The notes under the pieces were generated by a model, which saw only the letters and a list, made by a program, of their open reading frames with translations, was not told the DNA's origin and made no database searches. DNA of 55,346 nucleotides from Nitrospinota bacterium (GTDB lineage: Bacteria > Nitrospinota > Nitrospinia > Nitrospinales > VA-1), in NCBI GenBank assembly GCA_027619975.1, contig JAQCGX010000020.1:1-55346 (forward strand). The letters run 5' to 3'. The position numbers and the translations under genes were made by a program. How positions within the stretch are numbered: the stretch's first letter is position 1; the number at the start of each line of letters is the position of its first letter. Shown here piece by piece: positions 51,621 through 53,286 of this stretch.

Positions 51621-52052
51621 ATGCAGGCCGCCCAGCAAACGGTGACCGAAATTCAATCGGTCCTGAACAAATTCCGCGAAGGTTACGGAAATAAGGATAT
51701 CGATATTTTACTGAGTCTTTTCGATCCTGATCCCAACGTCCTGGTCATTGGAACGGGAGAAGATGAAAAACGATCGGGTCTCGCAGAAATCAAAATCCAG
51801 TTTGAACGCGATTTTTGTCAGTCAGATCAACTGACCGTGGAGTTTAAAAATGTCTCGGTATCGCAACAGGAGTCGGTGTGTTGGATTGCGGCAGACACGC
51901 ACGTCTATTTCGACACCCAGGGAAGTCCCATGCAAGTGTTCCTTCGATTCACGGGCGTATTAACTCACCGCACTGGCCAATGGCTGTTTGTCCAAACCCA
52001 TTTTTCACTTCCCTTTTCGGACTCTGCACAAGACGGTCCCACTCCCCAATAA
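51621..52052 (+). CDS. SnoaL/DUF4440-like (NTF2-fold) protein
   Basis: This 143-residue protein matches SnoaL-like/calcium-calmodulin-kinase-II-association-type NTF2 folds. An N-terminal helix IQSVLNKFREGYGNKDIDILLSLFDPDPNVLVIGTGEDEKRSGLAEIK precedes strands VCWIAADTHVYF and VFLRFTGVLTHRTGQWLFVQTHFSLP. GGAGGGG lies 4 nt before the ATG. It has no signal peptide and is likely cytosolic; ligand unknown. A GC-rich hairpin follows. Confidence 0.87.
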   Translation: MQAAQQTVTEIQSVLNKFREGYGNKDIDILLSLFDPDPNVLVIGTGEDEKRSGLAEIKIQFERDFCQSDQLTVEFKNVSVSQQESVCWIAADTHVYFDTQGSPMQVFLRFTGVLTHRTGQWLFVQTHFSLPFSDSAQDGPTPQ

Positions 52053-52086: not shown

Positions 52087-52161
52087 CCCCGCCCCAAGGG
52101 GCGGGGTATTTAAAAGTAGTTTTTTTATAACCTCCCCTAACCCCTCCTTGCAAAGGAGGGG
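52087..52161. repeat. Tandem hairpins after the SnoaL-like gene
   Basis: A perfect 9-bp stem CCCCGCCCC/GGGGCGGGG (52087-52106) is followed after some 15 bases by T residues and may end the SnoaL-like transcript. A second dyad CCCCTCCTT/AAGGAGGGG (52141-52161) is part of a CCTCCCCTAACCCCTCC-type sequence that resembles common intergenic repeats in many bacterial genomes. Confidence 0.55.
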
Positions 52162-52230
52162 AATGTGAAAGGAAACCCCGTAGCAGAGCTACGAGGAATT
52201 CTTTTGATTCAATCACAAATAAATTGTACA

Positions 52231-52420
52231 AAAAAAAGGCCCTGCTCATTTGAGCAGGGCCAACTACTTCCAGGAGCTTCCGGTCACTGGCACTTAGCCA
52301 ATGACTACGGAAGCTCCCCTTATACTGTGGTTAGACAAGGGATCACCTCCTTTTATCAGGGGAATGCACATTCCGCACTCAAGGCTCCCCTGGTCCCCAA
52401 AATGCGATACTGACTTTAAC
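52231..52420 (-). ncRNA. Candidate small RNA/leader with extended Shine-Dalgarno and terminator
   Basis: Read on the reverse strand, in order: a hairpin (GGAATG-TG-CATTCC, around 52359-52374), then AAAGGAGGTGATCC (within 52340-52354). That sequence is perfectly complementary to the usual 16S rRNA 3' end over 14 bases. A TTG-initiated 14-codon ORF follows 7 nt later. Next is a 45-nt hairpin (52273-52317; 10 bp plus two 4-bp segments, loop ACTTA on the plus strand). Last is an 11-bp Rho-independent terminator (52238-52261) with a T tract. No gene lies downstream on that strand, so this looks like a self-contained RNA of roughly 170-190 nt. Confidence 0.6.
52294..52338 (-). CDS. 14-residue leader-like ORF in the RNA candidate
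   Basis: TTG at 52338 opens MSNHSIRGASVVIG and ends at TAA (52296-52294), in the loop region of the 45-nt hairpin. The GGAGG core is 7 nt from the TTG, an ideal spacing. A terminating ribosome would cover and open that hairpin, as in attenuation leaders. Translation is not proven. Confidence 0.4.
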   Translation of the reverse strand: MSNHSIRGASVVIG

Positions 52421-52444
52421 AGAATGAAACAAAAATGTTCAAAT

Positions 52445-52460
52445 GTCAAAAAACTTTGAC
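52445..52460. promoter_or_regulatory. Palindrome overlapping a candidate -35
   Basis: GTCAAA-AAAC-TTTGAC is a perfect 6-bp inverted repeat. On the reverse strand it overlaps TTGACA (52449-52444), a consensus -35. The -10 at 17 bp spacing (CATTCT, 52426-52421) is weak. It lies 23 bp beyond the AsmA-like gene stop, positioned to drive the RNA candidate under a regulator. Confidence 0.45.
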
Positions 52461-52482: not shown

Positions 52483-53286
52483 CTACTTTCCCAGTAAACC
52501 CTTTACGGCATCTCCGATCGCGCCTGCGTTTTTCTCAACCAGTTCGGCACCGCCTTTTCCCAGAATTTCCTTCACCTCGGCGACCCCCTCCACGTTGTCG
52601 AGCACTTTGCCCAGATCAAGGGTTTTGACCGCACCCCCTGCCGCGATATTGATCGCATCGATCAACTTTTTAATCACCTCACCGGGAGTCGCTCCGCCTT
52701 TATCGCGGCCAATACCTGCCAGTTGAACTTTTGGAAGCTTGACACTCATCTTCTGTCCTTGCAATCCCACCGCACTGACATTGATCTTGCCATCAAGAAT
52801 GATGAGATTATCTATGATGAGTTTTTTTCCACTCTTCTTAGATTTTACCGGACGGCCCGCATCGGAGCCTTTTCCCTGGCCTCCACCTGTTTGACCAGCG
52901 GCATTTCTCTGCAAAGCATCAAGGTTGCTGCCATCCGTCCCCATCTCATAGGTGATCTCGGGGGCCGAAATAATAATTTCCTTTATGATTACCGTATCTT
53001 TGGTGATGCTCCCCACATCCAGTTGCAGGCTGATTTCTCCCAACTTAAACGCCGTGTCCGTTTCAAAACCTTTGGGATTTCCCACCTCCAATCCCTTCAA
53101 GGTTCCCTTACCGGAAGTCGCGGAGATTTTCGTTTCGTCCAGGGTCACCTTTGCATCGAGCGCTTCGGAGCCATATTTTTCAATGGCCATGGTCACCAGC
53201 AAATCCATGGAAAAAAGCAGGAAAACAACCATAAAACCTGTAAGAACCACGACCATGGCGAGCGTGACCCAAATTGAACGTTTCAT
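52483..53286 (-). CDS. AsmA-family-like envelope protein
   Basis: This 267-residue protein has an N-terminal membrane anchor (about 7-30, VTLAMVVVLTGFMVVFLLFSMDLL). The AsmA/DUF748-like start is YGSEALDAKVTLDETKISATSGKGTLKGLEVGNPKGFETDTAFKLGEISLQLDVGSITKDTVIIKEIIISAPEITYE. A glycine-rich linker and LIIDNLIILDGKINVSA follow. The C-terminal part is helical (IDAINIAAGGAVKTLDLGKVL and on). Such proteins are periplasmic, inner-membrane-anchored, and linked to lipid transport or outer-membrane assembly. Divergent from the DUF2059 gene. Confidence 0.83.
   Translation of the reverse strand: MKRSIWVTLAMVVVLTGFMVVFLLFSMDLLVTMAIEKYGSEALDAKVTLDETKISATSGKGTLKGLEVGNPKGFETDTAFKLGEISLQLDVGSITKDTVIIKEIIISAPEITYEMGTDGSNLDALQRNAAGQTGGGQGKGSDAGRPVKSKKSGKKLIIDNLIILDGKINVSAVGLQGQKMSVKLPKVQLAGIGRDKGGATPGEVIKKLIDAINIAAGGAVKTLDLGKVLDNVEGVAEVKEILGKGGAELVEKNAGAIGDAVKGLLGK

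Follow-up and report, generated by a model that had tools for sequence, protein, structure and literature searches.

A Structured RNA of Nitrospinales Carrying a Complete Anti-Shine-Dalgarno Match and a 14-Codon Reading Frame, Apparently an Undescribed Translated Regulatory RNA

Overview

The window (the whole 55,346-nucleotide stretch of a Nitrospinota contig analysed here) carries on its minus strand what looks like a translated regulatory RNA not described before. The element combines a promoter-like site, an H-type pseudoknot, a Shine-Dalgarno sequence (SD) complementary to the 16S rRNA 3' end, a 14-codon ORF whose stop codon lies inside a hairpin (P3), and an intrinsic terminator. Its anatomy, conservation and reading frame are established by comparison of sequences. 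Every part named by the first-pass annotation (SD, TTG-started ORF, hairpin and terminator) is present on the strand given, while the pseudoknot directly upstream of the SD and the promoter-like site TTGACA-N17-CATTCT had been overlooked. We tentatively favour, at slightly less than an even chance, an independently transcribed structured small mRNA, probably dual-function, in which translation would be part of the mechanism. A structured RNA lacking an Rfam family is maintained in an order of nitrite-oxidizing bacteria, and occurs sporadically in two further phyla. As it joins the strongest SD seen in its genome to a 14-codon ORF with a hairpin stop, ribosome capture and termination-coupled RNA switching become concretely testable. 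The comparison further suggests that CC2171, listed by Rfam as an sRNA, is a small mRNA and is translated.

Architecture of the Element

The promoter-like site (52421..52449, minus strand, as are all parts of the element) consists of TTGACA at 52449-52444 and CATTCT at 52426-52421, separated by a 17-nt spacer. Its -10 hexamer is atypical, which is why a generic promoter scan did not return it. The pseudoknot adjoins the SD on its upstream side. In stem S1 (52373..52407), TCGCATTTTGGG at 52407-52396 pairs with CCTTGAGTGCGG at 52384-52373; in stem S2 (52357..52392), CAGGGGAG at 52392-52385 pairs with TTCCCCTG at 52364-52357, and this 3' arm ends 3 nt upstream of the SD, AAAGGAGGTGATCC (52353-52340). 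The ORF (52294..52338), encoding LSNHSIRGASVVIG, starts at a TTG (52338-52336) located 7 nt after AGGAGG, its first L being read as fMet. As previously claimed, its stop codon, TAA at 52296-52294, falls within P3 (52273..52317), a 10-bp hairpin of GGAGCTTCCG (52317-52308) and CGGAAGCTCC (52282-52273) that contains the last codons as well. A terminator scan places the intrinsic terminator, GGCCCTGCTC-AAAT-GAGCAGGGCC followed by T8, at 52230..52261, with its hairpin at 52261-52238. Even with the pseudoknot left out, the RNA of the window folds with z = -6.3 relative to shuffles.

The upstream neighbour is an AsmA-like gene, named by inspection (52483-53286), which lies on the same strand and ends about 60 nt before the element. 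Downstream, a small convergent gene occupies 51621-52052 on the plus strand. Between the terminator and this gene, several GC-rich palindromes (CCCCGCCCCTTGGGGCGGGG; CCCCTCCTTTGCAAGGAGGGG; CCTCGTAGCTCTGCTACGGGG) occupy 52087-52196, looking like an interspersed repeat.

Pseudoknot and Hairpin P3

The stems were assessed in 41 non-redundant elements by comparing the pairing of each arm with its own partner and with swapped partners. For S1, the mean score is 21.7 with own partners and 14.1 with swapped ones (z = 13.5; largest shuffle 15.6), and for S2 the same comparison gives z = 5.0, both z values being inflated because swapping leaves the relatedness of the elements in place. The sequence of S1 varies while its pairing is kept. 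S2, usually CAGGG/CCCTG, also occurs as the compensated variants CCAAGG/CCTTGG, CCGGGG/CCCCGG and CGGGG/CCCCG. In P3, 93.9% of the cells are paired, against at most 59% in slid controls, and its covariation is modest. By reading, the loop that precedes the S2 3' arm is enlarged in two elements (L008 and L010), in which an insertion of ~60 nt, bearing additional hairpins, separates this arm from S1.

The Ribosome Site

The 16S rRNA 3' end reads GGATCACCTCCTTT in two members of the same family, so that 14 of the 14 SD positions pair; the mismatch-free complementarity proposed by the first-pass annotation thus stands on these relatives' 16S. A 16S search with the string GGTTGGATCACCTCC had returned no matches because the relatives' 16S reads GGCTGG. 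The duplex of the window element with the anti-SD amounts to -25.0 kcal/mol, as compared with -14.2 kcal/mol for the best of the 32 ORF-based genes of the window. The 2.93-Mb genome has a single copy of the perfect 13-nt ribosome site AAGGAGGTGATCC; within the order, this string nearly always belongs to the element, the few unrelated matches falling within genes or antisense to 16S. In several Bacteroidota members the SD is shortened. The SD could also base-pair with the P3 3' arm (median -7.8 kcal/mol), in part because GGAG occurs in both.

In viral contigs, the same SD precedes ordinary phage genes of 65-345 residues, besides some short ORFs of the alphaproteobacterial type described below. 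Among these contigs (L154-L199), one phage family uses AAGGAGGTGATCC[AG]TTG to open the gene of a 65-residue protein (LSTTVFDVLN...) that is conserved, and a small hairpin, GGGGC...GCCCC, stands immediately 5' of the SD.

Distribution and Genomic Context

With blastn, the element is found in 42 of the 60 genomes searched, the window genome counted. When 89 bits or more is taken as a strong match, the covariance model (R1) detects the element in 49 of 64 Nitrospinales genomes, with E-values down to 1e-39 in relatives; several of the genomes without the element are incomplete assemblies. In 13 genomes that represent sister orders in the class, there is no strong match (best 17.6 bits). A wider search, made by a pattern scan of GTDB 220 representatives followed by model searches, added members in four Lentisphaerae-class genomes (G078, G079, G106, G876) and eight Bacteroidota-related ones (G080, G225, G227, G228, G249, G325, G707, G738), at low frequency (3/146, 6/119 and 5/395). 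Of the 46 hits of the pattern scan, about 8 appear fortuitous (L036, L042, L043, L047, L057, L063, L065, L066). The SD/hairpin/terminator arrangement, on whose conservation the first-pass annotation had made its reading depend, is kept across the order and beyond.

The element is mostly single-copy. Two assembled genomes (G063 and G019) contain two full copies each, which may reflect a strain mixture in the assembly or a real duplication. A contig of a genome labelled Alphaproteobacteria (OFTM99; L038 / G077:C62) bears a Nitrospinaceae element amid Nitrospinaceae neighbour genes, and is probably misbinned.

Among 44 Nitrospinales elements, 42 are followed by a terminator and 27 have the promoter-like site at a nearly constant distance from the SD, a site found in 0.9% of shuffled sequences. 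Only members of one genus or of a close group have neighbour genes in common; gene orientation varies, and the gene that follows often lies on the opposite strand. Together with a conserved start, stop and frame, these features support the earlier view of a self-contained RNA, which is conserved and probably translated.

Reading Frame and Peptide

Start and stop codons are exchanged at fixed places. Among 56 distinct elements, the start is TTG in 33, ATG in 20 and GTG in 3, at one position and with a spacing of 7 nt from the SD in 52 of them; the stop, likewise in one place, is TAA in 38, TAG in 13 and TGA in 5. Relatives differ in ORF length by whole codons (12-15 residues), and the other two frames are interrupted by stops in 43 and 54 of the 56 elements. 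The peptide is variable in its N-terminal part and frequently ends with a Cys. The motif G-A-S lies 4 codons from the stop in 51/56, in a set selected for [GW]AS and, at some loci, through a pattern in which parts of this motif were already specified. Without the [GW]AS filter, 3 of 60 elements deviate: GAP with a compensated P3 (L108), GTS (L109), and a frameshift (L225). A later model match encodes MSNLTCGASGVTF, again containing GAS, with the same spacing.

The G-A-S residues are kept over three phyla, through codon changes mostly at the third position, some of which disrupt P3 pairing. The P3 5' arm and the G-A-S codons share nucleotides, so that the two constraints are not fully separable. 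For Nitrospinales, substitutions in the true frame give a nonsynonymous/synonymous ratio of 0.73, against 1.14 and 0.56 in the others, and no peptide-wide purifying selection is therefore claimed. At the level of sequence, the features kept are the frame, the start, the stop and G-A-S.

Relation to Rfam Families and to CC2171

A scan of the window with Rfam 15 returned no family at or above its gathering cut-off. Membership in CC2171 (RF01867), a Caulobacter sRNA, was rejected, the window element scoring 26.7 bits against a 75-bit cut-off, and the other subthreshold matches rest on the terminator or on hairpins. A tmRNA identity was also discarded, ARAGORN finding no tRNA-like domain in the window and the Rfam scan being empty. 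Three relatives score 29-31 bits with the CC2171 model, again below the 75-bit cut-off, and the model aligns exactly at the SD and start of the window element. CC2171 itself shows AAAGGAGGTGATCC, one nucleotide, a GTG start and TCT, then a short ORF with a terminator soon after. It thus resembles the element in having AAAGGAGGTGATCC and an NTG at a fixed spacing before a short ORF. In contrast, RNAs of the CC2171 type have no upstream pseudoknot, the SD being ~20 nt from the probable transcription start, and no G-A-S hairpin; instead, a helix joins the start region to the terminator, with a z of only 2.9. The common feature of the two types is this shared initiation signature, read from sequence, and they may or may not be homologous.

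The string AAGGAGGTGATCCNNTGTC is present in 31 of 190 alphaproteobacterial genomes, one of the 31 being a Nitrospinota contig binned as an alphaproteobacterium; the reversed control gives 0. In all of the remaining 29 loci with DNA examined, an 18-35-codon ORF is opened, and no peptide is shared. AAGGAGGTGATCCN-[A/G/T]TGTC always opens this ORF (L123-L152). As the signature invariably precedes a short ORF and no peptide is common to the loci, the pattern points to translation itself. Of the 16 alphaproteobacterial loci scanned, six score above the CC2171 threshold, all six encoding ORFs of 22-26 codons, such as VSHCHTPRSAASVTWIVASGGVRLG; CC2171, annotated as an sRNA, is hence probably a translated small mRNA. 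A passage of Schrader et al. reports that two previously predicted Caulobacter ncRNAs are translated, of which CC2171 may or may not be one (PMC4117421). Among the papers searched, none dealt with the present RNA or with the function of CC2171.

Possible Mechanism and Alternative Explanations

From this architecture we infer transcription, translation, pausing and any target, along with each functional step that follows. The SD would stay exposed between the upstream pseudoknot and the start-codon region, and would capture a 30S subunit with up to 14 base pairs. The ribosome would then make a peptide of 12-15 residues and reach the stop codon inside P3. At that moment the upper exit tunnel would hold G-A-S, at a distance of 5-7 residues from the peptidyl-transferase centre. 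P3 would be covered by the ribosome, which, whether terminating or pausing, would have to melt the hairpin and so release its CUCC-containing 3' arm. This arm may pair with the element's own SD, resulting in self-limitation, or else bind purine-rich stretches of other mRNAs.

Both the pseudoknot-bearing and the CC2171-type RNAs combine maximal 30S capture with an ORF of very few codons and with termination near or in a structure, which favours an RNA dependent on initiation and termination. This translated RNA is ranked ahead of a plain micropeptide gene, itself ahead of a 30S sponge. For the micropeptide gene, the 14-residue peptide would be the sole important product, the SD, pseudoknot and hairpin merely ensuring high expression and a stable mRNA. 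Several observations speak for it: G-A-S is kept over three phyla, with some codon changes at the expense of P3 pairing; many of the peptides end in Cys; the start, the stop and the frame persist; and phages use the same SD for ordinary genes. Most residues vary, however, the substitution ratio is not distinctive, and conservation is as strong for the pseudoknot, and for a stop located in P3, as for the peptide, so we consider this explanation rather unlikely. That the SD titrates or parks 30S subunits, with an ORF serving only to clear them, would agree with a pairing energy far above that of the other window genes, with the sole perfect SD of the genome and with a start that is often a weak TTG. 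Such a sponge is nevertheless improbable, since it would need an RNA abundance near that of free 30S, leaves the conserved G-A-S, stop position and frame unexplained, and fits poorly with the shortened SD of several Bacteroidota members.

The first-pass annotation had also envisaged a stand-alone attenuator. An attenuator is indeed built of an SD, a short ORF and a terminator, and the proximity of the same-strand AsmA-like gene (52483-53286) could likewise suggest its processed 3' UTR. Yet no downstream gene is conserved, and neighbours differ between genera, so that attenuation of a following gene is not supported. Given its own promoter-like site as well, the element is very unlikely to be either a leader peptide or attenuator serving an adjacent gene or a 3' UTR processed from the upstream one. 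That strong motifs merely came together by chance between genes deserves practically no credence: short motifs do arise randomly, as the chance-like pattern hits illustrate, but the covariance-model E-values in relatives, the fold z and the conserved frame and pseudoknot refute it. Returning to the favoured initiation- and termination-dependent RNA, it is doubtful, albeit conceivable, that the Nitrospinales, Lentisphaerae and Bacteroidota pseudoknot RNAs and the CC2171-type RNAs form one functional class of ribosome-capturing RNAs, pairing with the whole anti-SD, switched when the ribosome reaches a stop codon set in structure, and reporting or buffering ribosome availability in trans.

Comparison with Known Systems

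A pseudoknot beside the SD is found in the E. coli rpsO mRNA. The element may be likened to such ribosomal-protein mRNAs by its SD-adjacent pseudoknot, which could, by analogy, hold the 30S subunit, although no ribosomal protein gene follows it. TnaC is a leader peptide arrested at its stop codon, and similarly has conserved residues at a fixed distance from the stop; in contrast, the element has no downstream operon, and pausing there is only presumed. Dual-function sRNAs may carry a tiny ORF, as with Spot 42/SpfP (15 aa) and rnTrpL/peTrpL (14 aa), rnTrpL being leaderless and derived from the trp attenuator (PMC10117765). The element is like these two in being a small independent or released RNA with a 14-15-residue ORF, and unlike rnTrpL in both its leaderless nature and its origin. 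To our knowledge, neither Spot 42 nor rnTrpL bears a full anti-SD complement. In Staphylococcus aureus, an extended Shine-Dalgarno pairing reaches past GGAGG toward the start codon at ~30% of initiation sites (PMC13009471). The pairing of the element likewise extends beyond GGAGG toward the start codon; however, what is a general rule in S. aureus is here a full match at one site per genome.
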